A stretch of DNA of 37,004 nt from Clostridia bacterium. GTDB lineage: Bacteria > Bacillota > Clostridia > Oscillospirales > CAG-272. The notes beneath the pieces are model-generated. The model searched no databases and was not told where the DNA came from. It worked only from the letters and a program-made list of their open reading frames with translations. This document shows, piece after piece, positions 3,765-22,220 of the stretch. How positions within the stretch are numbered: the first letter of the stretch is position 1; every line of letters begins with the position of its first letter. Location: positions 284,255 through 321,258 of the forward strand of contig JAFVVP010000001.1 in NCBI GenBank assembly GCA_017502135.1, read 5' to 3'. Position numbers and translations under genes: made by a program.

Positions 3765-4982
3765 ATGATTACTCAAATCAAAGGCGGCGTTTGCGCCGCA
3801 AAGGGATTTAAGGCGGGCGGTATCCACTGCGGCATCCGCAAGAACCGTACCAAGCGTGATCTCGCTCTGATCGTGAGCGAAGTGCCCGCGGCGGCGGCCG
3901 GCGTATATACGAAGAATCTCGTGAAGGGCGCACCGATTCTCGTTACACAGAAAAACATTGCAAACGGTAAAGCACGTGCGATCGTTTGCAACAGCGGCAA
4001 CGCCAACACCTGTAACGCAAACGGCATTGAGATTGCTGAGGCAATGTGCCGGGTTACCGGCGACGCGCTCGGAATCGCTCCCGATGACGTAGTCGTCGCT
4101 TCCACCGGTGTAATCGGTCAGCCGCTTTCCATTGATCCGATCGCCGAACACATCGGAGAACTTGCCGCGTCGGTTACATCGGACGGCAGTGCATATGCCG
4201 CCGAGGCGATCATGACGACCGACACGAAGAAAAAGGAGGTTGCTTACTCCTTCACCGCAGGCGGCAAAGAGTGCCGTATAGGCGGTATTGCCAAAGGTTC
4301 GGGTATGATCCATCCGAACATGGCAACGATGCTCGTGTTTGTTACGACCGACTGCGCGATCTCCGCCGAAATGCTTCAGAAAGCGCTCAGCGAGGACGTA
4401 AAAACCTCTTTCAATATGGTAAGCGTGGACGGGGATACCTCTACCAACGATACCGTTTGTGTTCTGGCAAACGGCATGGCGGGCAATCTTGAGATCGCCG
4501 ACGAGGGCGCGGACTTTGACGCGTTTGCCGAAGCACTCCACGCCGTAACGGTAGAACTTTGCAAGATGATCGCCGGTGACGGCGAGGGCGCGACGAAACT
4601 CCTCACCTGTGAACTCTCCGGTGCACCCAACGCGGAGACCGCACAGACGGTTGCAAAATCCGTCATCTGTTCGTCTCTTACGAAAGCCGCCATGTTCGGC
4701 GCGGACGCCAACTGGGGACGTATCCTTTGTGCGATCGGCTACAGCGGCGTCTTTGTAGACGTGAACAAGGTAGACGTTTCCTTCCGCTCGAAGGCGGGGG
4801 AGATCCTCGTGTGCAAGGGAGGCGCGGGCGTTGATTTCTCGGAGGAGACGGCGAAGACGATCCTCACCGAGAGCGAGATCGATATCGTGGTCGCGCTCAA
4901 CGACGGCGACGCATCCGCTACCGCATGGGGATGCGATCTGACGTACGATTACGTAAAAATTAACGGCGATTACCGCACCTGA
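3765..4982 (+). CDS. argJ: bifunctional glutamate N-acetyltransferase / ornithine acetyltransferase
   Basis: ArgJ moves the acetyl group from N-acetylornithine to glutamate, closing the acetyl cycle; the bifunctional form can also use acetyl-CoA. At 405 residues it has the usual length. The self-cleavage site is visible in [13 protein letters not shown]: the A187-T188 bond, with T188 becoming the N-terminal nucleophile of the beta chain. KGSGM before it and the C-terminal [14 protein letters not shown] are also family marks. The ribosome site before the ATG is weak, and a strong hairpin ends 11 nt upstream, so coupling or RNA folding may matter. No argE or argA is needed for this route. Confidence 0.96.
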
Positions 4983-4999
4983 TTTGTTAGGAGATAAAA

Positions 5000-5857
5000 A
5001 TGGATTTGGAAATGACGAATGCGCAGAGAGCGGAAGTTCTCATACACGCTCTGCCGTACATACAGAAATACTACAATAAGATCATCGTTGTGAAATACGG
5101 CGGTAACGCTATGATCAACGAAGAATTGAAAGAAGCCGTGATGGGCGATATCGTTCTTTTGTCGCTCATCGGTATCAAGGTTGTCTTGGTACACGGCGGC
5201 GGCCCCGAGATCAGCGATATGCTCAAAAAGATCGGCAAGGAGTCCCGTTTCGTGGACGGTCTCCGCGTGACGGATGGGGAGAGCATGGACATCGTGCAAA
5301 TGGTTCTCGCGGGCAAGATCAATAAGAATCTTGTGAATCTCCTTCAAAATAAAGGCGGCCGCGCGATCGGCCTTTGCGGCGTGGACGGACACATGATCGA
5401 GGCCGTACAGCTGAAAGAAGAACTCGGCTTTGTGGGTGAGATCACGAACGTGAATACACAGCCGATTCTGGACGTGCTTGAAAAAGGGTATATTCCTGTT
5501 ATCTCCACCGTCGGATGCGACAACGAAGGGCACACGTACAACATCAACGCCGATACGGCGGCTGCGCGTATTGCCGGCATGCTGAAAGCGGAATCGCTTA
5601 TTTCGATGACGGACATCGTCGGCATCCTTCGTGATAAGGACGATCCCTCAACGCTCATCTCGAAGATCAACGTGAGCGATGCCCCCGAGCTTATTCACGA
5701 GGGCATCATCTCCGGAGGTATGATCCCGAAGGTGGAATGCTGCATCGAGGCGATCCGCCGCGGCGTCAGCAAGGTCTTCATTATTGACGGCAGAGTACCG
5801 CACTCCATCCTCATAGAAACCTTGACGGATGAGGGTATCGGCACGATGCTCGTCTGA
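5000..5857 (+). CDS. argB: acetylglutamate kinase
   Basis: ArgB phosphorylates N-acetylglutamate with ATP, the step that is usually feedback-inhibited by arginine in cyclic pathways. The 285-residue protein has the amino-acid kinase fold: K32 in VVKYGGNAM, the glycine loop LVHGGGPEIS at 63-72, and the substrate-binding INADTAAARIAG near 180. An N-terminal helix of about 25 residues before the kinase core (AEVLIHALPYIQKY) is the part that mediates arginine-sensitive hexamers in this family, suggesting feedback control (inference). The start has AGGAG 8 nt upstream, 17 nt after argJ. Confidence 0.96.
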   Translation: MDLEMTNAQRAEVLIHALPYIQKYYNKIIVVKYGGNAMINEELKEAVMGDIVLLSLIGIKVVLVHGGGPEISDMLKKIGKESRFVDGLRVTDGESMDIVQMVLAGKINKNLVNLLQNKGGRAIGLCGVDGHMIEAVQLKEELGFVGEITNVNTQPILDVLEKGYIPVISTVGCDNEGHTYNINADTAAARIAGMLKAESLISMTDIVGILRDKDDPSTLISKINVSDAPELIHEGIISGGMIPKVECCIEAIRRGVSKVFIIDGRVPHSILIETLTDEGIGTMLV

Positions 5858-5886
5858 ACCAAAACGATTATAACCGAGGCAATACG

Positions 5887-7050
5887 ATGGATATAAAATC
5901 ACTCGATAACGAATACGTTGCGCATACCTATGCGCGTTTTCCCGTGGCGTTCGTGAAGGGAGAGGGTTCCCATCTCACCGACGATACGGGCAAGGAATAT
6001 ATAGATCTCGGTACGGGCATTGCGGTCAATACGTTCGGCATTTCTGATCCCATCTGGCAAAAGGCGGTGAGCGATCAGCTCGGAAAGCTCCAGCACGCAT
6101 CGAACCTTTATTACACGGGCCCGTGCGCTGAACTGGCAGAGATGCTCTGCAGCCGTACCGGCATGAAAAAAGTCTTTTTCTCCAACTCCGGTGCTGAGGC
6201 GAACGAATGCGCGATCAAAGCGGCGCGTCTCTATTCGTATGAAAAATACGGGGACGGACGCTCGACGGTCGTAACGCTTAAAAACAGCTTTCACGGACGC
6301 ACGCTGGCGACGCTCTCCGCGACCGGACAGGACGTGTTCCATACGAAGTTCGGTCCGTTCCCGGAAGGGTTTGTGTACGCTGATCCGACCGATGCCGAGG
6401 ATGTCATCCGTCTGGTCAAAGAAAACAACGCGTGCGCAGTCATGATGGAACTCGTGCAGGGCGAGGGCGGTGTCTATCCGCTTGAGGAGGACTACGTACG
6501 CACAATTTCCGATTTCGTGAAAGAAAGCGATGTTCTTCTCATCATCGACGAGGTGCAGACGGGCAACGGACGTACCGGCTCGCTTTACGCGTTCGAGCAG
6601 TACGGCATTCAGCCCGATATCGTATCGACCGCGAAGGGACTTGCGGGCGGCTTGCCGCTCGGCGCGACGATGCTCGGTGAGAAACTTGCAGATACCTACA
6701 AGCCGGGCACGCACGGTTCTACATTCGGCGGCAATCCGATTGCATCCGCGGGCGCTGTCAGTATCCTCTCCCGCATAGACGATGCGCTTCTCGCCGACGT
6801 GCGGGCAAAATCGGAATATATTTTCTCCGAACTGACGGGTGCGAAGGGTGTCGTGGGCGTGAGCGGGCTTGGGCTTATGATCGGTATTCAGACCGAAAAA
6901 TCGGCGAAGGATGTGATCGCCGGGTGCATGGAGCGCGGTGTCGTCGTTCTCTCTGCCAAGGAAAAAGTGCGGCTCTTGCCTGCCCTCAATATTCCCATGG
7001 AAGACCTCAAAAAAGCAATCGGGATCCTCAAAGAAGTAATTGCAGAATAA
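5887..7050 (+). CDS. argD: acetylornithine aminotransferase (PLP class III)
   Basis: ArgD converts N-acetylglutamate semialdehyde to N-acetylornithine with glutamate as amino donor. This 387-residue class III aminotransferase shows SNSGAEANECAIKAAR, the IIDEVQTG segment with the PLP-contacting aspartate, and the Schiff-base lysine K250 in STAKGLAGGLPLGA. HGSTFGGNP marks the phosphate-binding loop. The ribosome site is only GAGG. It lies 29 nt after argB and 13 nt before argF. A dual role with succinyldiaminopimelate is possible in the family, but the operon supports the arginine role. Confidence 0.95.
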   Translation: MDIKSLDNEYVAHTYARFPVAFVKGEGSHLTDDTGKEYIDLGTGIAVNTFGISDPIWQKAVSDQLGKLQHASNLYYTGPCAELAEMLCSRTGMKKVFFSNSGAEANECAIKAARLYSYEKYGDGRSTVVTLKNSFHGRTLATLSATGQDVFHTKFGPFPEGFVYADPTDAEDVIRLVKENNACAVMMELVQGEGGVYPLEEDYVRTISDFVKESDVLLIIDEVQTGNGRTGSLYAFEQYGIQPDIVSTAKGLAGGLPLGATMLGEKLADTYKPGTHGSTFGGNPIASAGAVSILSRIDDALLADVRAKSEYIFSELTGAKGVVGVSGLGLMIGIQTEKSAKDVIAGCMERGVVVLSAKEKVRLLPALNIPMEDLKKAIGILKEVIAE

Positions 7051-7063
7051 AGGAGATTTACAG

Positions 7064-7975
7064 ATGAAGCATCTTTTGAAACTGATGGATCTTTCCACCG
7101 AGGAGATCATTGATATACTGAATCTTGCAGATCAGCTGAAATACGAGAAGAAGAACGGCATCGAGCATCATATTCTCAAAGGAAAGACGCTCGGTATGAT
7201 CTTCCAGAAATCCTCTACCCGTACCCGCGTTTCGTTCGAGGTTGGTATGTACGATCTCGGCGGCCAGGCGCTGTTCCTCTCCTCGCGCGATCTGCAGATC
7301 GGACGCGGCGAGCCGGTGGAGGACACCGCACGCGTGCTTTCCCGTTATCTTGATGGCATTATGATCCGTACGTTCGAACAAAAAGAAGTCGAAACGCTTG
7401 CCCAGTACGGCTCGATCCCGATCATCAACGGCCTTACGGACTACTGCCACCCTTGTCAGGTTCTTGCCGATCTTATGACGATCCGTGAACACAAGGGGCA
7501 CATCAGCGGCAATAAACTCTGCTTTATCGGCGACGGCAACAATATGGCAAACTCCCTAATCGTCGGCGGCATCAAAACCGGTATGTCCGTCGCGATCGCC
7601 TGCCCGAAAGAGCACAAGCCCGATGCGGAGATTATGAAGTGGGCATCCGAGAACGGCAGTTTCCTCTGCACGGATAACGTGGAGGAGGCCGCCGACGGTG
7701 CGGACGTCCTTTATACGGACGTGTGGGCATCCATGGGTCAGGAGGAAGAAGCCGCCGCACGGAAACTGAAATTTGCCGGCTATCAGATCAACGAGAAGAT
7801 TCTCGGTGTCGCCAATCCCGGCTGTATGGTACAGCACTGTCTCCCCGCACACCGCGGCGAGGAGATCACCGCTGACGTATTCGAGGCGCACGCAAACGAG
7901 CTCTTTGACGAGGCAGAGAACCGCCTGCACGCGCAGAAGGCGGTTCTCGTCCGCTGTATGGCAGGCAATAAATAA
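7064..7975 (+). CDS. argF: ornithine carbamoyltransferase
   Basis: ArgF joins ornithine and carbamoyl phosphate to give citrulline. The 303-residue protein has the carbamoyl-phosphate loop STRTR (51-55), HPCQ (129-132), and the ornithine-binding MVQHCLPAHRGEE near the C-terminus. The start at 7064 follows AGGAG with an 8-nt gap; an earlier in-frame ATG at 7040 lies inside argD and lacks a ribosome site. It is the last gene of argCJBDF and is followed by a terminator. No argG or argH is seen in the window, so conversion of citrulline to arginine must be encoded elsewhere. Confidence 0.96.
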   Translation: MKHLLKLMDLSTEEIIDILNLADQLKYEKKNGIEHHILKGKTLGMIFQKSSTRTRVSFEVGMYDLGGQALFLSSRDLQIGRGEPVEDTARVLSRYLDGIMIRTFEQKEVETLAQYGSIPIINGLTDYCHPCQVLADLMTIREHKGHISGNKLCFIGDGNNMANSLIVGGIKTGMSVAIACPKEHKPDAEIMKWASENGSFLCTDNVEEAADGADVLYTDVWASMGQEEEAAARKLKFAGYQINEKILGVANPGCMVQHCLPAHRGEEITADVFEAHANELFDEAENRLHAQKAVLVRCMAGNK

Positions 7976-7985
7976 AAAAGAAGAA

Positions 7986-8020
7986 AAGGCTGTTGCATCT
8001 GATGCAGCAGCCTTAATTTT
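7986..8020. terminator. bidirectional terminator between argF and dacA
   Basis: AAGGCTGTTGCATC and GATGCAGCAGCCTT form a long stem with one G-T pair, then AATTTTT on the plus strand. The flanks are A-rich to the left, so it can also stop the convergent minus-strand gene. Confidence 0.85.
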
Positions 8021-9333
8021 TAGGGCAGAAATACGCGCTCACCCGTTTCTTTGTCAATGGCGTTCGTGTAGTCCGAATATACGTTTATCGCATCAAAGAC
8101 GGGACCAAATTTTTCGGTAGAGTCAATGGAAACAAAAACGTACGCATCACCCGTTACATCGTCCTCGGCGTAGCTCATGAGGCAGTGATGCGCCTCGTGC
8201 GTGTAGCCCGTTTTACCCGCAAGGATCGTAACGCCGTCCGGCTCATCGCCGTACATTCGCGAAAACATTGTGGATTCGAGAAGGAGCCCTTCCGGATGCT
8301 TCTCCGTCGGCGCAGTCGTGTGGCGGTACGTCGAGAGAATCATGGCGCAGTCCTCGTACTGCATAGCGTAGGTGAGGATCATCGCCATCTCTATGGCGGT
8401 CGAGTGGTGCTCTTTGTCGTGAAGCCCCGTCGCGTTCGTGAAATGGGTTTTGGTGAGACCCAACTCTGCGGCTTTTTCGTTCATGAGTGAAACGAAGGCG
8501 TCCTCGCTTCCGGCAACGTATTCGGCTAAGGCAACTGTAGCCTCCGCACCGGATGGGAGGATCATACCGTAGAGAAGATCGAGAAGCGTTACGGTTTCGC
8601 CCGGTGCGAATCCCGCAAGGGAGGCTTCTGCTTTGTACAAGGGATCAATAAGCGTGCTCGTAACGGTTACGGTGTCCGAAAGATTGCCGATGTGCTCGTA
8701 CGCGACGATCATCGACATTACCTTCGTGAGGGACGCAGGATGAATTTTGGCGTTTGCCGATTTCTCGGCTAAGATTCGATTGTCGGTGAGGGAGACGAGT
8801 ACGGCGTACGTGCTGTCAATCTCATCGGTTAGTGTAACCGTGGCGGCGCACGGCGTCGGGCGGATTACCGTCGGTATATCCGGTTCGGGATCGGCCGGCG
8901 GGAGGGTGGTCGTCTCGATGGACGGTATTTCCTCGACAAATGGCGTCGTTTCCGGAATGGATGCGGGGACGGACTTGTTGTTCACACAGGAGCGGAGTGA
9001 GAGGGCAAAAAGCATCAGAACAACGGCGCCCATGCATACCGTACAGATAAAACGTATTCTTTTTCGGCGACGTTCGGCGGCACGGCGTTCTGCTTGACGG
9101 CGTGCTTCGGCGCGTCGGCGAACCTCTGCTTCCTTTGAGCGCGGCGGCCTTCGGATTACGGGGACATTTTCCTTCGGCAGCGGAGCGGGAAGTGGGCGCA
9201 CGGGGGCAATCGTTCCTGCCGGCCTATGTTGCAGCGGTCTGTTCGGCAGAGCAGATGTTGGCCTGCGAGGGACTCCGTTCGGGGATTTGCTCGGCTGTGC
9301 CGTTCCCATGGGGCGACGCGGCGATTGATTCAT
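8020..9333 (-). CDS. D-alanyl-D-alanine carboxypeptidase (S11, PBP5-like) with long basic cytoplasmic tail
   Basis: This enzyme trims the terminal D-alanine from peptidoglycan stem peptides. The S11 motifs are in order: S201-L-T-K204 (nucleophile and base), S261-G-A263, and K374-T-G. The middle motif is SGA rather than the commoner SGN. The first ~93 residues are proline- and arginine-rich and then strongly charged (a run of EARRQAERRAAERRRKR), followed by one membrane helix at about 94-112. The catalytic domain is thus anchored outside by its N-terminus, unlike classic DacA with a cleaved signal and C-terminal amphipathic anchor. The C-terminal PBP5 domain appears short or absent. The ribosome site before the ATG at 9333 is poor. 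Confidence 0.88.
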   Translation of the reverse strand: MNQSPRRPMGTAQPSKSPNGVPRRPTSALPNRPLQHRPAGTIAPVRPLPAPLPKENVPVIRRPPRSKEAEVRRRAEARRQAERRAAERRRKRIRFICTVCMGAVVLMLFALSLRSCVNNKSVPASIPETTPFVEEIPSIETTTLPPADPEPDIPTVIRPTPCAATVTLTDEIDSTYAVLVSLTDNRILAEKSANAKIHPASLTKVMSMIVAYEHIGNLSDTVTVTSTLIDPLYKAEASLAGFAPGETVTLLDLLYGMILPSGAEATVALAEYVAGSEDAFVSLMNEKAAELGLTKTHFTNATGLHDKEHHSTAIEMAMILTYAMQYEDCAMILSTYRHTTAPTEKHPEGLLLESTMFSRMYGDEPDGVTILAGKTGYTHEAHHCLMSYAEDDVTGDAYVFVSIDSTEKFGPVFDAINVYSDYTNAIDKETGERVFLP

Positions 9334-9362
9334 ATGATACCGTCCGTTACTGTAAATTTAAG

Positions 9363-9393
9363 ATAAGGGGGATCCTTGCGGTATCCCCCTTAT
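9363..9393. terminator. hairpin between two minus-strand genes
   Basis: ATAAGGGGGAT and ATCCCCCTTAT form a perfect 11-bp stem with a 9-nt loop. The T-rich tail (TTGTTTTTT) is on the plus strand; on the minus strand the tail is CTTAAATTT. It most likely ends the gene at 9416-10411, though weakly. Confidence 0.65.
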
Positions 9394-9415
9394 TTGTTTT
9401 TTAGGATCCCGTCGT

Positions 9416-10411
9416 TTATTTGCGGCTTTGCTTTTCGGCTGTCCGCTTCGCTTCTGCCGCTGCCTGTTCTTCGGCTGCTTTGGCGAGCGCACGTTTTGTT
9501 TTCTTCTGGTTGAGAACGAACGGGATCGCGATGCCGGCTGTGAAAAGTGCGAGGAGTACGACGAGAACGATATGGTCAACGGTGCGCGGTACGCTCTCAC
9601 CGAAGAAGATACTGGTGCGCGTGTCCTTGCGGATGGATTTCATCTTCACGCAGTTTTCACCGCTGTACTCGGAGAGTTCTTCCAAGGAATCCGCGTGCGA
9701 TCCTGCGAGAATCTCCACGTCGGCAATCGTGAGATTTTTATCGGACGTAAGTGCCGGTTTCTCGGCGGCGACGGACAAGGAAAGCGCCTGAATATCGAGA
9801 TGTAGCGTCGCGTGTACGGCGTTGTCCATCGTCATCTTGCCGCCGTACAGTTTGAGGACGCGGCCGTTTATGGCAAAATTCTCGGGGGTTGACGCCTGAA
9901 TCTTCCAATCTCCGTCAATAAACGAAACCGTGGAGTGCGTACTGTAAATACCGTCTCCGCCGGCTTTGATATCGTACTTGCCCGACATAAAGCGGACGGT
10001 CGTGGAGTCGTCGGTGGAATAGCAGTAGATGCCCATATCATCGGAGACGAGGGTCAAGGTGCCGCTCCCCTTGAACGTAACCGTTCCTGCCAGAGCGAGC
10101 GCGGCGCGGGATGCCTTTATGTAGTTTTGTCCCTTAAGAATGACGGTTGCACCGGAAGTGATCTTGAGACCGTAGTCGTCTTTTGTGTCTATATACAGCC
10201 CGTCGAGCGTGAGCGTTGCGTTTCTGTTGTCCCACGTGTAGCCGTGATCGGTTATATCGCGGCGGGGGAGGGAGAGGTTTACCGTTTTCGTAAGCTTTGC
10301 GGCGGCGGACGCCGTCGGCACGAGAACGGCGGTAAAAGAGAAAAGCATGGAAAGCGCCAAGGCGGCGGTTACGATGCGTGTAAAGGTACGGTGCTTCATA
10401 CGGTTGTCCAT
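9416..10411 (-). CDS. secreted, membrane-anchored beta-helix-like protein
   Basis: A 331-residue extracytoplasmic protein. It has a basic start and a signal peptide (about 12-37, ending ASA-AA), then repeated short strands of the right-handed beta-helix / carbohydrate-binding kind (NATLTLDGLYI, GATVILKGQNYI, GTVTFKGSGTLTLVS, STVSFIDGDWKI). Near the C-terminus there is one membrane helix at about 278-298 and a charged, alanine-rich tail. No catalytic motif is visible, so it is more likely a binding or surface protein. The start is uncertain: ATG 10411, TTG 10417 and ATG 10393 (MKHRTF) are in frame, but the only good AAAGGAG lies about 26 nt upstream of 10411. Confidence 0.75.
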   Translation of the reverse strand: MDNRMKHRTFTRIVTAALALSMLFSFTAVLVPTASAAAKLTKTVNLSLPRRDITDHGYTWDNRNATLTLDGLYIDTKDDYGLKITSGATVILKGQNYIKASRAALALAGTVTFKGSGTLTLVSDDMGIYCYSTDDSTTVRFMSGKYDIKAGGDGIYSTHSTVSFIDGDWKIQASTPENFAINGRVLKLYGGKMTMDNAVHATLHLDIQALSLSVAAEKPALTSDKNLTIADVEILAGSHADSLEELSEYSGENCVKMKSIRKDTRTSIFFGESVPRTVDHIVLVVLLALFTAGIAIPFVLNQKKTKRALAKAAEEQAAAEAKRTAEKQSRK

Positions 10412-10485
10412 TCCCAAAACGCCAGGTGAGGGAATGACTCCTTTCTGTTGCGTTATGTGCGATTTTTTCGAAACTGTCTTTTATA

Positions 10486-10514
10486 ATAATACCATATTTT
10501 TATATCAAAAACAA
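10486..10514 (-). promoter_or_regulatory. promoter of the beta-helix protein gene
   Basis: TTGTTT, 17 bp, then TATTAT preceded by TGG (extended -10), read on the minus strand. The leader would be about 70 nt. Confidence 0.6.
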
Positions 10515-10575
10515 TAGGCAGTGTGAGGTTTTCGCATTTTTACATCCTGTTCAAAAAAGGATTTCAGAAATGCCC

Positions 10576-10604
10576 TTGCAAGCGAAATGTGAATATGCTA
10601 CAAT
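10576..10604 (+). promoter_or_regulatory. murI promoter
   Basis: TTGCAA, 17 bp, TACAAT with an extended TGC in front. It overlaps the in-frame ATG at 10570, which is therefore not the murI start. Confidence 0.8.
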
Positions 10605-10638
10605 ACTGATATATGAGTTTGAAAGGAGCGCTGACAAT

Positions 10639-11460
10639 ATGCCCATGACCGATACATACGACAACCGCCCGATTGCCGTGTTCGATTCCGGAGTCGGCGG
10701 GATCAGCACTCTTTCTGAACTCACCACGCTTATGCCGAACGAATCCTATCTCTATTTCGGTGATTCTCTCCATGCACCGTACGGCTCCAGAACAGAGGAG
10801 GAGGTGCGCGCGTTTACCGACGAGCACATCGGTCGGCTTATCGAAAAGGGAGCAAAGGCGGTCGTTATTGCCTGCAATACGGCAACGGGCGCGGCGGTCT
10901 CGTATCTCCGCGAAAAGTACGCGGGTATTCCCATTATCGGGATGGAGCCTGCTATCAAGCCGGCCGTGGAAGCGTATCCGGGCGGGCGCGTGCTCGTTAT
11001 GGCCACGCCTGTAACTTTGGCATCCGGCAAATTCCGAGCGCTTATGGGAACGTATGAAAAGAACGCAGAGGTGATCCCTCTTCCTTGCCCGAATCTTGCG
11101 CAGATGGTGGAAGCGGGCGTGCTGGAGGGCGAGGCGCTCGATGCGTATCTCGCCGAGCTGTTTTTGCCGTTCCGCGATCGTCCTGCCGATGCCGTTGTTC
11201 TCGGATGCACGCACTATCCGTTTGTTCGCGAGGCGATCGAAAAGGCGGCAGGGAAAGCCGAAATCTTTGACGGCGGTTCCGGCACCGCAAGAGAGGTACA
11301 GCATCAACTGCGCCTGCACGGCTCCCTTACGGATCGCACGACGGCGGGCGAGGTTATTATTGATAACAGCGATCCTACCGAGGAAAGGCTGCGTTTCTCC
11401 GAAAAACTACTCGAGGTCGGTCGGGAAAAATGTAAGGCGAGGATGTCCGAATCATCTTAA
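10639..11460 (+). CDS. murI: glutamate racemase
   Basis: MurI interconverts L- and D-glutamate to supply D-glutamate for peptidoglycan. The 273-residue protein has the two catalytic cysteines in their motifs: C79 in VIACNTATGAA and C190 in VVLGCTHYPF. It also has AVFDSGVGGIS near the N-terminus and YFGDSLHAPYG at 39-49. The ATG at 10639 has AAAGGAG 10 nt upstream and lies after the promoter at 10576-10604. The next gene, an M20 peptidase, follows 89 nt later and may be cotranscribed. Confidence 0.95.
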   Translation: MPMTDTYDNRPIAVFDSGVGGISTLSELTTLMPNESYLYFGDSLHAPYGSRTEEEVRAFTDEHIGRLIEKGAKAVVIACNTATGAAVSYLREKYAGIPIIGMEPAIKPAVEAYPGGRVLVMATPVTLASGKFRALMGTYEKNAEVIPLPCPNLAQMVEAGVLEGEALDAYLAELFLPFRDRPADAVVLGCTHYPFVREAIEKAAGKAEIFDGGSGTAREVQHQLRLHGSLTDRTTAGEVIIDNSDPTEERLRFSEKLLEVGREKCKARMSESS

Positions 11461-11549
11461 ACCTACAAAAGGGCTATTACCGTCGATGAAAAGAATTTGG
11501 CACGGTTAAGCGAAAAGAATAAGAAATCAACTATATGGAGGATAAAACG

Positions 11550-12716
11550 ATGATGGAACAAGTATTTGCCAATGTAGAGGCGCGGGCAGATCAATTCAAA
11601 CAGCTTTTGAAGGATATTGTTTGTATGGAAAGCTATACACCCGACAAGGAGGCTGTGGATGCGGTTGGTGCGTATCTGGCTGCCTTTGCGGAACAAGAAG
11701 GTTTCCATGCGCAAACAATCCCGTTTGAGAAAGCCGGCAACGGTCTGCTCATTACCTGGAACGAGGATGCTCCTCTTCCCCCCGTGGCATTTACCGGACA
11801 TCTGGATACAGTGTTTCCGGTCGGGACTTTCGAAGAGCCTTTGTTCCGCGAGGAGGACGGAAAGTTTTTTGGCCCGGGCGTGGTTGATATGAAAGGCGGA
11901 CTTGCAGTTGGGCTTTTGGCTATGTGTGCTCTCAAGGATGCCGGCTACAAAGACAGACCCATCAAGTTTATTATGATCAGCGATGAAGAACTGAGTGAAG
12001 GCTTGTCGGGGGAAGCAGGCAAGGATTTCATCCGCGATAATGCCCGCGGATGCGCTGCCGCTATCACCCTGGAAGGCGGATTTGAGGACAAGGTTACCGT
12101 GGGACGAAAGGGCTCTATTCGGTACAAGGTTTACGTAAAAGGGTATGCAACCCATGCGGGCGCACACTATGCCTCGGGTATCAGTGCCATTAAAGAGGCT
12201 GCGCACAAGATTCTGGCTATCGAGGCTCCCAGCGATCAAGAGCAGATTACCTATAACTGCGGAATGATCAGCGGCGGTACCGCCCCCAACACCGTTCCGG
12301 GTGAGGCGATGTTTACACTGTATAACCGTTATTGGGAAATGAAGCAGCGTCAGGAGATTCGGGATCACGTAGAGGGTATTATTGAAAAATCGTATATTCC
12401 CGGTACCGTGTCCACCTTTGAAGTGGTGGGTGAACGACTTCCCATGGAGGCTACGCCGGGAAACTACGCATTGGCAGCTCACGCCAACGAAGTATCAGTG
12501 AAGTATGGATTTGGGGCGTTGGAGCCCTACAAAAAATCCAGCGGGTCCGATGCCTCGTATACAACCATGGCAGGCACTCCCAGCATTTGTTCTATGGGCC
12601 CCCTTGGCGGGCGTGCCCATTCTACGGATGAATTCATGATAGCGGAGTCTTTGGTCAGCCGTGCAAAAATGCTGGCTGCTATTATTGCGGAACTGCCTGA
12701 AAATTTCGGCAGATGA
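11550..12716 (+). CDS. M20 family metallopeptidase / deacylase
   Basis: A 388-residue zinc-dependent amidohydrolase of the ArgE/DapE/PepT/carboxypeptidase G2 group. Metal ligands and catalytic residues are visible: H84 and D86 in TGHLDTVFPVG, bridging D113 in GPGVVDMKGG, E146-E147 in SDEELSEG, and a late histidine in GGRAHSTDEF. The dimerisation domain with KGYATHAGAHY lies between. Start 11550 has GGAGG 8 nt upstream; the ATG at 11535 overlaps that site and is rejected. The ArgJ-cycle operon makes an ArgE role unlikely. Substrate cannot be told; dipeptides or N-acyl amino acids are possible. Confidence 0.88.
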   Translation: MMEQVFANVEARADQFKQLLKDIVCMESYTPDKEAVDAVGAYLAAFAEQEGFHAQTIPFEKAGNGLLITWNEDAPLPPVAFTGHLDTVFPVGTFEEPLFREEDGKFFGPGVVDMKGGLAVGLLAMCALKDAGYKDRPIKFIMISDEELSEGLSGEAGKDFIRDNARGCAAAITLEGGFEDKVTVGRKGSIRYKVYVKGYATHAGAHYASGISAIKEAAHKILAIEAPSDQEQITYNCGMISGGTAPNTVPGEAMFTLYNRYWEMKQRQEIRDHVEGIIEKSYIPGTVSTFEVVGERLPMEATPGNYALAAHANEVSVKYGFGALEPYKKSSGSDASYTTMAGTPSICSMGPLGGRAHSTDEFMIAESLVSRAKMLAAIIAELPENFGR

Positions 12717-12790
12717 GAAAACAGTCATTTTCATAACGGTGTTTTTTACACAATCCGACACACTTGAATTTGACAGAGGAGTGCGCCTGT

Positions 12791-13033
12791 ATGAAAACAA
12801 GAAGAACGCTGAGGCTAATTAGTCTTTGTATGCTGATTGTGGCAGTAGTCTTTGTTTTCTGCGCTCTGTCTGTGCCTACACTTGGAAAGACAATCTATAT
12901 CGGAAGCTTCGTGTTTGGCGCAGAACAGTGGCGGATCTGCTATATGATTTACGTTATCGTTATGGCGGGGTTGTTTATCGCTTCGTTTTTTGTGAAGAAG
13001 TCCGGTGGGAAGGGGCGGAGCGAAGGAGAATGA
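12791..13033 (+). CDS. small two-helix membrane protein
   Basis: An 80-residue protein with a basic start (MKTRRTLRL), a hydrophobic helix at about 9-29, a short outer loop (GKTIYIGSFVFGAEQWR), a second helix at about 44-66, and a basic, glycine-rich tail. AGAGGAG lies 9 nt before the ATG at 12791; the longer frame to 12764 has no ribosome site. It is followed after 4 nt by the next small membrane gene. The family is not recognised. Confidence 0.75.
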   Translation: MKTRRTLRLISLCMLIVAVVFVFCALSVPTLGKTIYIGSFVFGAEQWRICYMIYVIVMAGLFIASFFVKKSGGKGRSEGE

Positions 13034-13037
13034 TTGT

Positions 13038-13289
13038 ATGAAGACGATAGCAAAATGGTTAGCAGTAATTTCTATTATTGTCTTTGTGGTCGCTTGGGGT
13101 ATTATGGGGTTGAAAATACTTGATAATAACTACTTCATTACAACAGAAGCATACATAGGATTGATTTCGCTTGTGGTCTTTTTCGTTTGTGTCATGTATG
13201 TGAAACTCACAAATCGTTGTCCCCATTGTGGAAAGGAAAAGCAATCCTTTGGGAAATACTGTCCTTACTGTGGTAATGAAATCAAGTGA
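13038..13289 (+). CDS. membrane protein with C-terminal zinc ribbon
   Basis: An 83-residue protein with two helices (about 7-27 and 38-56) and a C-terminal zinc ribbon with paired CPxCG knuckles: C61/C64 (CPHCG) and C75/C78 (CPYCG). AAGGAG lies 9 nt before the ATG at 13038. It is the middle gene of three small membrane genes. This fold combination is common in uncharacterised Clostridial proteins; the function is unknown. Confidence 0.8.
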   Translation: MKTIAKWLAVISIIVFVVAWGIMGLKILDNNYFITTEAYIGLISLVVFFVCVMYVKLTNRCPHCGKEKQSFGKYCPYCGNEIK

Positions 13290-20292: not shown

Positions 20293-20327
20293 AAAATCCC
20301 ACATCCAAAACGGATGTGGGATTTTTT
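20293..20327 (+). terminator. copA terminator
   Basis: AAAATCCCACATCC and GGATGTGGGATTTT form a 14-bp stem with a short loop, followed by TT and TGTG. Confidence 0.92.
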
Positions 20328-20390
20328 GTGGGAGGGGGACTTTTAAGAGCGACACCATGGTTGTAAACGAGGTTTATGTATCAAAATTTT

Positions 20391-20789
20391 TTATCGCAAG
20401 CATTTGGGTTGTACGCGGATTTGCGGCGGAAGCCCGATGGAAAGCGAGGACTGAGGATCAATAACTACACCCCAAGTTTTGATTAAAGGGTGAGAGTCCA
20501 AAGAATACAAGACGCTCTTTAAATCCCCCTTTATAATGATGAAGTCTACGCATTCTATCGATGCCATGTGCTTTTTCAATCCTGAAATTGTTGTGAACGC
20601 GGGAAAATACAAAATATCAGAATCATTGGTTTGTAATATATTTAGCGATTGCCCATCCTTTTGAGAGAAAAACGGGGTTGAATAATATAGTTTTTTTCTT
20701 TCATTTGCGTTGACAAAATCTTGAACAGAAATTTCATTGTTTTGCAGTTTTTTTATGGTTGATTCCCACTTGTTTTGTTTTCCTAACAA
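20391..20789 (-). CDS. SseB-like small protein
   Basis: A 132-residue soluble protein. The segment ILYFPAFTTISGLKKHM followed by LKSVLYSLDSHPLIKTWGVVIDP resembles the SseB N-terminal domain pattern (lPaFTs..., then viNP), a family often found beside toxin or secretion genes and of unclear function. The start is TTG at 20789, supported by GAGGAAGGA 7 nt upstream. Base composition is clearly more A/T-rich than the core genes, suggesting transfer. Its promoter is almost identical to that of the other accessory gene at 21172-21651. Confidence 0.6.
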   Translation of the reverse strand: MLGKQNKWESTIKKLQNNEISVQDFVNANERKKLYYSTPFFSQKDGQSLNILQTNDSDILYFPAFTTISGLKKHMASIECVDFIIIKGDLKSVLYSLDSHPLIKTWGVVIDPQSSLSIGLPPQIRVQPKCLR

Positions 20790-20825
20790 CAGAATATCCT
20801 TCCTCTTCTTTTTGATTTTTGATTT

Positions 20826-20854
20826 ATTTTACCACAACTTTGTAAATGTTTCAA
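20826..20854 (-). promoter_or_regulatory. promoter of the SseB-like gene (shared module)
   Basis: TTGAAA, 17 bp, TAAAAT with TGG before the -10. The whole 30-bp block differs at about four positions from the block at 21675-21703. Confidence 0.75.
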
Positions 20855-20864
20855 TCTTTTCCGT

Positions 20865-21022
20865 GATAGCCAGGACTCAGAACCTCGGCTTTCGCCTGCG
20901 CGTTTCAAACCGCCGGTACACCTTTGCGAAAACCTTATCCGATGCTTACGCATCGGAGTGGTTCTTCGTCATTATCAAAACGAAAGAAAGCCATACGGCA
21001 GATGCCGTATGGCTTTCTTTGG
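20865..21022. repeat. 158-bp direct repeat, copy A
   Basis: It begins with a degenerate tRNA-Gln 3'-end fragment and continues through three hairpins: a GCGTTT/AAACCGC-type inner palindrome, CCGATGC-TTAC-GCATCGG, and a terminator-like stem AAAGAAAGCCATACGGCA...TTT at 20983-21020. The last ~119 bp are identical to copy B at 21980-22136. It sits 11 bp upstream of the -35 of the SseB-like gene. Confidence 0.92.
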
Positions 21023-21171
21023 GACGTAACGCCGATTTAGATGCAAAAGCGGTTAGTGGCTGATTTAGATGCGCGCCGATTTTGCAGAGGGTACACTGAC
21101 TCCTTGGCGATGATGGGAGTTGCACTTGACCGCTATCTTTCGGGGGGCAACGCCATGCTTGCAAACGAAAT
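21023..21171. other. possible gene remnant between copy A and the next gene
   Basis: This stretch reads as a protein-like plus-strand frame (LVADLDARRFCRGYTDSLAMMG...ALDRYLSGGNAML) without a start site, a stop-free family match, or a promoter. GATTTAGATGC occurs twice within 33 bp. It may be a remnant of a mobile or phage gene. Nothing functional can be claimed. Confidence 0.3.
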
Positions 21172-21651
21172 CTATGTATTATTGATTTTTATAGTTGTTT
21201 TACCGCAGGCATCAACATCAAATACAGCATCAAAATTGGCATCAGGCTTCCATCCTCGCACTTTGAACGAATCTGCTATATCCTTTAATTTGCCAAATGG
21301 AAAATCACTGAAAAAGTTTTCCAAGGTTTCATACGATAAGTCCTGCAATTCTTTCGCTTCAATGTCTCCACCAAAACACCGCCTACCACATTTAAAAAAT
21401 TCAATAGATAACAATTTGCCATTGATGATGTCGTATATATGTTCGATGATATCTTCCTCGTCATTCATATGCCAATGTTGAAACGAAAAATATAGAATAT
21501 AGGGAGTCCATTCGTCTTCGGGCACATATTCTAACTTGATGTTTTCGTTACCAAATGGATTCCGTATTTCCAAGGAATTTTTATCATCAAAAAGATGCGT
21601 TGCGTAATCAGAGAATTGTGAAGCTATAGCTACAAGGTTGTTTTGAAACAT
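21172..21651 (-). CDS. hypothetical acidic protein, accessory
   Basis: A 159-residue soluble protein with many Asp, Glu and aromatic residues (VPEDEWTPYILYFSFQHWHMNDEEDIIEHIYDIINGK) and three cysteines in CGRRCFGG and near the C-terminus. No signal peptide or membrane helix. No family is recognised; the size, acidity and setting recall immunity-type proteins, which is only a suggestion. GAGGGTG is 6 nt before the ATG at 21651. The A/T-rich composition differs from core genes. It lies between two copies of a direct repeat. Confidence 0.7.
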   Translation of the reverse strand: MFQNNLVAIASQFSDYATHLFDDKNSLEIRNPFGNENIKLEYVPEDEWTPYILYFSFQHWHMNDEEDIIEHIYDIINGKLLSIEFFKCGRRCFGGDIEAKELQDLSYETLENFFSDFPFGKLKDIADSFKVRGWKPDANFDAVFDVDACGKTTIKINNT

Positions 21652-21674
21652 AAATTCACCCTCTTTCTTTTTGT

Positions 21675-21703
21675 ATTATACCACAATTTTGTAAACATTT
21701 CAA
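21675..21703 (-). promoter_or_regulatory. promoter of the hypothetical gene (shared module)
   Basis: TTGAAA, 17 bp, TATAAT with TGG before the -10. It is nearly the same sequence as the promoter at 20826-20854, including the spacer core TTTACAAA.TTGTGG. Confidence 0.85.
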
Positions 21704-21741
21704 CCGTTTCGCAAGTTCGAATCTGTCTACAGACCCGAAGA

Positions 21742-21938
21742 AAATGAAATCGTGCTGCGCACGATGAAATCCTCACTTCGTTCGGGTGAAATCTTCGGCG
21801 TGCCGCCTCAGATGAAATCGAAGCCTTGCGGCTTCGGATGAACGAAATCCGCTCTCCTCTCCCCGCGAAGCGGGATTTCATCGCGAAGCGATTTCATCCA
21901 CCGCAGGTGGATTTCTTCCGCCAACGGCGGATTTCGTT
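21742..21938. repeat. array of eight short hairpins with GAAATC/GATTTC spacers
   Basis: Hairpins: CGTGC-TGC-GCACG (21751-21763), a weaker one at 21773-21789, CGGC-GT-GCCG (21796-21805), CGAAGCC-TTGC-GGCTTCG (21819-21836), CCCGC-GAA-GCGGG (21862-21874), ATCGC-GAA-GCGAT (21880-21892), CCACC-GCA-GGTGG (21898-21910) and CCGCC-AAC-GGCGG (21918-21930). The stems differ, but the spacers are constant: ATGAAATC in the left half and its complement GATTTCAT in the right half, so the array is itself inverted about ~21850. It has no coding content. Confidence 0.9.
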
Positions 21939-21939
21939 G

Positions 21940-21971
21940 AAAAAAGCACTTGCTTGCGCAAGTGCTTTTTT
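21940..21971. terminator. strong hairpin with T-tail at the end of the array
   Basis: AAAAAGCACTTGC and GCAAGTGCTTTTT form a 13-bp stem with a TTGC loop, able to terminate in both directions. On the minus strand it follows a copy of the tRNA-Gln 3' end. Confidence 0.9.
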
Positions 21972-21972
21972 C

Positions 21973-21992
21973 TGGCTGGGATAGCTGGACTC
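21973..21992 (-). repeat. 20-bp duplicate of the tRNA-Gln 3' end
   Basis: This sequence equals the last 20 nt of tRNA-Gln (22134-22153), including CCA, exactly 161 bp away. Beyond it, the T-loop copy carries one extra base (CAGAACC for CGAACC). It marks either a tRNA remnant or an attachment-site-like duplication. Confidence 0.9.
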
Positions 21993-22136
21993 AGAACCTC
22001 GGTTTTCGCCTGTGCGGTTCAAACCGCCGGTACACCTTTGCGAAAACCTTATCCGATGCTTACGCATCGGAGTGGTTCTTCGTCATTATCAAAACGAAAG
22101 AAAGCCATACGGCAGATGCCGTATGGCTTTCTTTGG
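21980..22136. repeat. 157-bp direct repeat, copy B
   Basis: Nearly identical to copy A at 20865-21022. Differences are confined to the first ~40 bp. Its terminator-like stem (22097-22134) runs into the tRNA-Gln CCA end and serves as that gene's terminator on the minus strand. Confidence 0.93.
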
Positions 22137-22209
22137 CTGGGATAGCTGGACTCGAACCAGCGAATGCAGGAGTCAAAGTCCTGTGCCTTACCGACTTGGC
22201 GATATCCCA
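22134..22209 (-). tRNA. tRNA-Gln (anticodon TTG)
   Basis: A 76-nt gene with encoded CCA. The acceptor TGGGATA pairs with TATCCCA, the discriminator is G, and the anticodon stem CAGGA/TCCTG encloses CTTTGAC with anticodon TTG. The T-arm is GGTTCGAGTCC. Confidence 0.96.
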
Positions 22210-22220
22210 CCGCAATCGAT

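Follow-up and report, generated by a model that had tools for sequence, protein, structure and literature searches.

In a 37,004-nt stretch of a Clostridia genome (CAG-272 lineage, contig JAFVVP010000001.1; the window in what follows), two small open reading frames, ORF1 and ORF2, lie behind a tRNA-Gln gene. We compared this locus with those of related genomes, and we read its two small genes as two worn units of a tRNA-anchored array of gene cassettes, each unit consisting in principle of one gene with its own promoter and a conserved hairpin (the post) after the stop codon. The parts of the array all lie on the minus strand and are listed here in window positions, with tRNA-Gln first.

22134-22209, minus: tRNA-Gln(ttg), the anchor of the array (ARAGORN; Rfam RF00005)
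21973-22133, minus: repeat copy B, the tRNA terminator hairpin plus about 100 bp (sequence reading and repeat comparison)
21973-21992, minus: 20-nt copy of the tRNA 3' end that closes repeat copy B (sequence reading)
21742-21972, minus: inter-cassette leader, a terminator hairpin and a hairpin array (conserved in genomes G004 and G046)
21870-21939, minus: match to the Gut-1 RNA within the leader (Rfam, 51 bits against a cut-off of 50)
21675-21703, minus: promoter of the ORF2 cassette, TTGAAA-17-TATAAT (read in the sequence; common to other cassettes)
21172-21651, minus: ORF2, cassette gene of 159 amino acids (without Pfam, PADLOC or NCBIfam match)
21069-21183, minus: post after ORF2 (model R1, 121.9 bits, E 1.2e-28)
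21021-21078, minus: right end of the ORF2 unit, two GCATCTAAATC-type sites with the variant end ..CGGCGTTACGTCCC(A) (comparison of end types)
20861-21020, minus: repeat copy A (98% identity to copy B over 150 nt)
20826-20854, minus: promoter of the ORF1 cassette, TTGAAA-17-TAAAAT (read in the sequence)
20391-20789, minus: ORF1, cassette gene of 132 amino acids that starts with TTG (similarity to SseB weak and below cut-off, E 0.026)
20314-20385, minus: truncated post after ORF1, the end of the array (model R1, 33.8 bits, E 4.4e-6)

The two promoters are nearly identical and both genes are A/T-rich (35% GC for ORF2 and 37% for ORF1 versus 53% for the rest), as an initial annotation made from the window's sequence had already recognised; the promoters are of the sigma-A type. 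Searches of Pfam, PADLOC and NCBIfam gave a convincing domain for neither protein. Relatives of ORF2 were found within cassettes of two genomes, as a fragment at a contig end (G016) and as the C-terminal part of a longer protein (G030). When the locus was searched against 59 relatives, its own genome counted, 57 gave matches, many of them through the tRNA alone; ORF1 and ORF2 are rare (3 of 59 genomes each, own genome included), whereas their flanks are widespread. The hairpin array, the promoter and the post recur as separate pieces without ORF1 or ORF2, in multiple copies in some genomes. Gene by gene, the comparison within the genus was made with G004, the contigs of the other three same-genus genomes being broken in this region. 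There, the framework of tRNA, repeat, tRNA-end copy, hairpin array and promoter (locus L036; window 21656-22212) is kept at 81% identity, but it encloses one gene with a DUF4304 match (E 6.5e-11) and another with an HTH match (E 1.6e-13); the leader region is 81% identical to that of the window in G004 and 86% in G046. The initial annotation had suggested a modular cassette region behind tRNA-Gln and had proposed to look in relatives for the promoter block, for both proteins and for other small genes in the same slot. The search bears it out: other genes occupy the slot in G004, promoter, post and unit ends are shared by relatives, and the promoter block is common to many cassettes.

The same annotation had taken a repeat of about 157 bp, said to begin with a copy of the tRNA 3' end, as what defines a gained unit. 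The repeat pair does exist (20873-21022 and 21987-22136, 150 nt at 98% identity; by eye about 160 bp, 20861-21020 and 21973-22133), but in the direction of the tRNA copy B ends with the tRNA-end copy, and that of copy A is degraded. We found no further copy in the window's own genome (1.14 Mb, 65% complete), and in other genomes that place holds different sequences. The repeat is lineage-local and is not what defines the mobile unit; it is a local duplication of the region downstream of the tRNA. What units have in common is the promoter block, their two ends and the post that follows the stop codon. A possible gene remnant proposed at 20946-21164 is not a gene, as it overlaps the ORF2 post (E 1e-28), its right end and the repeat. 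Duplication of the tRNA terminator region behind the tRNA and behind a post was also seen at L036, L073 and L118 besides the window (copies B and A); in the window, L036 and L073 the duplicated region includes an extra copy of the tRNA 3' end. Such a region could possibly act as a decoy for incoming units and so protect the real tRNA.

The post starts at the stop codon or shortly downstream and has the form TACATAG..TCGTTTGCAAGCATGGCG-stem-CTCCCATCATCGCCAAGGG, with TACATAG itself providing the stop codon in several cassettes. Its exact 18-mer, CTCCCATCATCGCCAAGG, is present in at least 117 stretches of the genome collection. Among the 80 matches listed, 62 are by title Clostridia or other Bacillota, all of them metagenome-assembled genomes (MAGs), and of the other 18 only L083 passed a looser two-part pattern, as an evident false match. 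Both halves of the post were found in 110 of 148 distinct seed matches, and under strict filters the post model matched genomes from seven families, at least 25 of the 295 in the order. The inner stem occurs as several sequence types that mostly keep their pairing: among 89 distinct rows with an inner length of 34 or 35, a hand-set stem was 91.3% paired versus 82.6% after shuffling (maximum 84.3%), kinship being ignored, and at three pairs 31-32 rows had changed on both sides. An arm-swap control, likewise blind to kinship, gave 6.1 of 7 positions paired versus 5.0 (104 sequences). RNAalifold on a MAFFT alignment of the posts returned only 7 pairs and -1.6 kcal/mol, in our view because the stem types are misaligned, and four single-sequence folds were mixed (z -0.73, -2.78, +0.74 and +0.36). 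At curated cut-offs Rfam gave no match for the post in the stretches searched, and one post sequence had no match among plasmid and phage records. Carriage of posts by phages was considered and rejected. Fifteen viral stretches (L179-L193, IMG/VR contigs) bear the 18-mer, but none was counted as a post: 11 match the model weakly (21-26 bits), one of them over its full length (E 0.008) and ten in part, at the same model positions, perhaps as a conserved viral coding stretch. Neither the unit ends nor the promoter had an exact match in viral contigs.

A probably folded element after each stop codon of co-oriented, single-ORF cassettes recalls integrons, and the post might be a relic of attC on which a host Xer-like recombinase acts, all the more as 13 of 13 array-bearing genomes encode an Xer-like tyrosine recombinase. 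Against such a degenerate or divergent integron, none of 108 posts contains the attC motif RYYYAAC..GTTRRRY on either strand (shuffling gave 1.1 on average and 5 at most), nine recombinases tested from array-bearing genomes all fall far below the integron-integrase cut-off, and the CA junctions described below lie at the unit ends, outside the hairpin. We therefore regard this explanation as very unlikely.

Across loci, a unit is ordered as left end, leader with terminator and hairpins, promoter, ORF, post and right end, and units follow one another in tandem and in the same orientation, each with a single ORF that differs widely from unit to unit. The arrays that we saw are short, with one to five posts at each locus and with contig ends that often truncate them, and several of the loci overlap or are near-identical (L133, L158, L305). 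The ORF ends just 5' of the post in 105 of 124 posts, a few posts being chance matches. These 105 cassette proteins form 74 clusters, of which 54 are singletons. A Pfam scan of 65 proteins (63 cassette proteins and the two of the window) found 47 families, among the 25 listed HTH (4), DUF2310 (2), DUF4304 (2), TPR (2), ADP-ribosylglycohydrolase, Imm26, WapI-like immunity, methyltransferases, DUF3267 and RDD. An immunity-like function, which the initial annotation had tentatively offered, is thus plausible for some cassettes (Imm26, WapI-like, DUF4304), but these sit among many unrelated families, with HTH, methyltransferase, ADP-ribosylglycohydrolase and membrane genes present too. The shared promoter block has 72 matches, 51 of them with a post within 2 kb. 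Directly 5' of many cassette promoters (leaders of L062, L109, L124, L133 and others) we also observed a second leader repeat, CTCCCTCAGTCGCC..GGCGCCAGCTCCCTCC.GGAGGGAGCC. Gut-1 (RF01706) was matched at cut-off in the array leaders of 6 of 16 loci (11 matches), in addition to L040 and the window. A reverse transcriptase as carrier of the ORFs was discarded, being present in just 4 of 13 array-bearing genomes.

We asked whether arrays are anchored at tRNA genes in general, using the 40 arrays with at least 2.5 kb of upstream DNA. In 33 of them a co-oriented tRNA gene lies no more than 2.5 kb upstream: Gln(ttg) in 22, Trp(cca) in 10 and Gln(ctg) in one. The seven without a tRNA in reach are L040, L044, L065, L076, L096, L119 and the false post L126+; in three of these a tRNA-Gln lies farther upstream (2.7 kb in L065, 3.4 kb in L119 and 9.2 kb in L040). 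The tail that follows the post is specific to the tRNA. Counted by post, with 74 posts lacking a tRNA in reach and 2 behind other tRNAs left out, the tails behind Gln(ttg) are Gln-type in 28 of 32 cases, Trp-type in none, both in one and neither in three, while behind Trp 12 of 12 are Trp-type. Some gene families are shared by loci of the Gln type and of the Trp type (L051, L074 and L167 for the MSNISEK gene; L064/L134; L043/L143), suggesting exchange between the loci.

The right end of a unit is TTTTGCATCTAAATCGGACACAC(A/G)TCACA, often preceded by a second copy of the site; the left end is the inverted counterpart, TGATGAGTGTCTGATTTAGATGCAGGCACG. When up to 2 mismatches are allowed, the end site is found in 83 of 295 family genomes, some of them by chance, versus 10 of 295 for the reversed pattern. 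Left ends directly abut the CCA of tRNA-Gln at 11 loci (L041, L049, L271, L272, L274, L277, L278, L303, L307, L308 and L313), and at six (L289, L300, L301, L302, L307 and L158) they directly abut a right end, with 0 bases between. CA precedes 15 of 15 distinct left ends (found with a longer pattern, outside which the CA lies), and it is mostly that of the tRNA CCA or of the preceding unit's CACA. Trp-type ends are analogous, with ..GTGTGCCA followed by AGTCTTTAG in L123 and ..CCCCTGCCA followed by AGTCTTTAG in L121. A circle of one unit would bear the dyad GCATCTAAATCGGACAC-14 nt-GTGTCTGATTTAGATGC, so that the joined unit ends would resemble a recombinase site. Inverted terminal repeats, a second internal site at each end and the targeting of tRNAs would also fit non-autonomous, MITE-like (miniature inverted-repeat transposable element) transposons with ends TGT/TGA..ACA, mobilised by a DDE transposase with a Tn7-like preference for tRNA. 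However, zero bases between the ends at the six unit-unit junctions mean that no target duplication is present there, and we hold the transposon explanation to be highly improbable. TniQ was matched in 0 of 16 genomes, and the control genomes were silent as well.

Comparison of near-identical genes in different loci indicates that cassette genes move INDEPENDENTLY of the hairpin. In 25 same-gene pairs (85% gene identity or more; the near-identical L133/L158 was left out, and some pairs are not independent), the inner hairpins were no more alike than random ones (0.698 vs 0.685, p 0.68); in 14 pairs hairpin identity was at most 0.61, in 8 at least 0.85 and in 3 between. Decoupling is clearest in L077, L085 and L116, whose proteins are 98-100% identical and whose DNA is the same until TACATAGGTCTCGTTT, after which three different hairpins and tails follow. 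Homogenisation within arrays explains this poorly, since hairpins within a locus are hardly more alike than those between loci (0.724 vs 0.682, p 0.09), and of 48 pairs from a single locus 17 have different hairpin types. On the 5' side, the untranslated region travels with the gene (0.87 vs 0.52, 12 same-gene pairs).

These data also bear on the possibility that no dedicated recombinase exists and that homologous recombination or unequal crossing-over between conserved flanks (promoter block, post, tails) shuffles the ORFs and makes the arrays grow. Swaps of the ORF alone between similar flanks, the lack of a recombinase in most arrays, the mosaic leaders and promoters, the terminator and repeat duplicated after the tRNA and the posts (window, L036, L073, L118) and the similar hairpins retained in 8 of 25 same-gene pairs would all be expected from it. 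On the contrary, the outright difference in hairpin of 14 of 25 pairs goes beyond what crossovers spread over a 150-bp flank should give, and neither the precise CA/TGATGAG-type junctions, at the tRNA and at units alike, nor the tRNA-specific tails are in agreement with it. Homologous recombination as the sole mechanism is therefore unlikely, even if it deserves more weight than the transposon or the divergent integron.

The initial annotation had noted that no integrase or transposase is visible, and we saw no recombinase in that interval either. We looked for candidate enzymes in the array loci. Tyrosine recombinase ORFs numbered 0 in 116 array loci (987 kb, some overlapping; the control of the hidden Markov model was its own training set). 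Five ORFs resembled large serine recombinases, of which two are fragments and three are neighbours of arrays: just beyond the last right end (L042), just upstream of a cassette (L076), and within an island with inverted arms of its own between the tRNA-Gln CCA and the array (L040), where Pfam recognises resolvase, recombinase and zinc-ribbon domains. This L040 island (4860-13040) lies exactly at the CCA, also encodes a C5/N6 DNA methylase protein and an HNH protein, and has the arms TAATTTGAACC / GGTTCAAATTA. Serine recombinases are common in Clostridia, and 15 of 16 genomes tested have one. Elsewhere in the genomes, tyrosine recombinases are present in 13 of 13 array-bearing genomes, each including the Xer-like protein of about 345 amino acids; those of the 12 other genomes are 47-60% identical to that of the window's genome, which lies below the XerC/XerD and integron-integrase cut-offs. 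This protein (349 amino acids, G000:C6:283504-284028) is encoded just upstream of window position 1. We tentatively prefer, with low confidence, a large serine recombinase acting in trans as candidate enzyme, because of the long dyad arms and of a shared core that would span no more than some 2 bp.

At E <= 1e-40, 87 of 295 family genomes encode another tyrosine recombinase, of about 280 amino acids (L245 family). The end site is present in 13 of 20 genomes with a close homologue versus 70 of 275 others (Fisher p 4e-4), the 20 having been hand-picked from the top of the match list after it had been viewed. In most of the 20 regions around these genes (L323-L342, e.g. L326:6610-7428) the recombinase is followed by inverted ACCACATAAT..ATTATGTGGT repeats, and it is possibly a self-inverting switch. 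With its own inverted repeats and the array arm in 0 of 20 regions, this family was taken as a separate system and rejected as the missing enzyme; nor, at E <= 1e-40, does it have a match in G021, G030 and G031, three genomes with arrays or end sites.

Taken together, we consider it probable that these loci are integron-like cassette arrays, with units inserted successively at a tRNA 3' end by a trans-acting recombinase, and that the window locus is a remnant of one. According to this model, single-gene units with their own promoter would enter one after the other at the 3' end of tRNA-Gln, and elsewhere also of tRNA-Trp, by site-specific recombination at CA, either that of the tRNA CCA or that of the ..CACA end of a resident unit. 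The inverted half-sites at the two ends of a unit would join into the dyad, as on an excised circle, and the recombinase would be encoded outside the array. The ORF would be exchanged separately from the hairpin that follows, with a breakpoint that often coincides with, or slightly precedes, the conserved TACATAG..CATGG segment found at the stop codon. The comparisons themselves display how arrays are anchored and oriented, how units are built, how variable their genes are, that genes and hairpins are decoupled and which junctions occur; the circle, the direction in which arrays grow, the recombinase class and the value of the cargo are inferred. The window copy itself is probably no longer mobile, because only a degenerate right end remains.

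Several observations weigh against this reading. In the window, neither unit has an intact left end and the right end is degenerate, and the two relatives of ORF1 lack post and cassette promoter (flanks read on both sides in L060 and downstream in L061). Five left-end contexts follow a CA that belongs neither to a tRNA nor to a right end (L044, L118 twice, L132 and L286). Moreover, 71 of 75 distinct right ends finish in CA, a count that is not independent evidence because the pattern contained CACA. Left ends are also rarer than right ends (15 vs 75 distinct, with similarly strict patterns), therefore many units must be worn. As to decoupling, besides the incomplete independence of the pairs and the eight that kept similar hairpins, tails are closer in same-gene pairs than at random (0.685 vs 0.615, p 0.008), a likeness that is gone within one tail class (0.744 vs 0.729, p 0.54, 14 pairs), and 5' breakpoints are fuzzy (leader 0.675 vs 0.522 random, promoter 0.92 vs 0.85, 12 same-gene pairs). 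No recombinase could be tied to the system: the serine recombinase neighbours may be unrelated islands, and G262, which has arrays and is 97% complete, gave no serine recombinase match. Finally, in genomes that are mostly fragmented MAGs, with contigs often ending at arrays, we saw no empty/filled strain pair, circular form or movement.

Integrons are the best-known systems that capture and align single genes, and recombinase-associated acquired interbacterial defence (rAID) arrays are a second case. Like integrons and CALINs (clusters of attC sites lacking integron integrases), the arrays described here have tandem, co-oriented, single-ORF cassettes whose cargo varies greatly, begin at a single landing site and have an element after each stop. 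They differ in that the landing site is a tRNA 3' end, many units are preceded by a promoter, and the putative recombination half-sites are separate from the hairpin, being placed at the two ends of the unit. The array works like an integron but lacks two defining features, an IntI in the array and the attC motif. Among integrons, arrays without recombinase exist (CALINs) and some cassettes have their own promoter (PMC8618304). The rAID arrays of gut Bacteroidales (PMC12247911) share the layout of short co-oriented genes with conserved intergenic motifs, and they have a tyrosine recombinase upstream and orphan immunity genes as cargo; here, the phylum is another one, arrays are tRNA-anchored without a tyrosine recombinase beside them, and the cargo does not appear to consist mainly of immunity genes.

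tRNA 3' ends are integration hot spots of Tycheposons and other tRNA-targeting elements, each of which contains many genes along with a tyrosine recombinase, whereas here a unit has mostly one gene and no recombinase. In a large-serine-recombinase integrative element the enzyme would be part of the unit; here its gene is only a neighbour (3 of 116 loci) or a fragment (2), even if the CA before 15 of 15 left ends and the arms GCATCTAAATCGGACAC / GTGTCTGATTTAGATGC around 14 nt may be reminiscent of such elements. Gut-1 was described as a noncoding RNA that occurs in environmental sequences only, those of the human gut (PMC2864571), while here it is a repeat in cassette leaders, with facing copies in L040 and L073. 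The literature that we searched yielded no description of a tRNA-anchored cassette system; gene-cassette arrays are already known as a kind, and the tRNA-anchored form in uncultured gut Clostridia appears to be new.

We more hesitantly put forward, as a proposal with somewhat less than an even chance of being right, that gut Clostridia harbour a new cassette class in which tRNA-Gln and tRNA-Trp 3' ends would serve as attI, a CA-cutting recombinase would act in trans to add and remove single-gene cassettes with their own promoters, and a second, structure-based exchange point at the stop codon would allow ORFs to pass from cassette to cassette without their hairpins. The post, with its covarying stems and no Rfam match at curated cut-offs, would be a new element. 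If the integron-like reading is true, these arrays would be a third cassette-capture system, anchored at tRNA genes, which would suggest that cassette capture arose more than once. The orphan Gut-1 RNA would also gain hosts and a context, and, whatever benefit the cargo may confer, small mobile genes of immunity-like, regulatory and other kinds would form a large reservoir open to direct searching.

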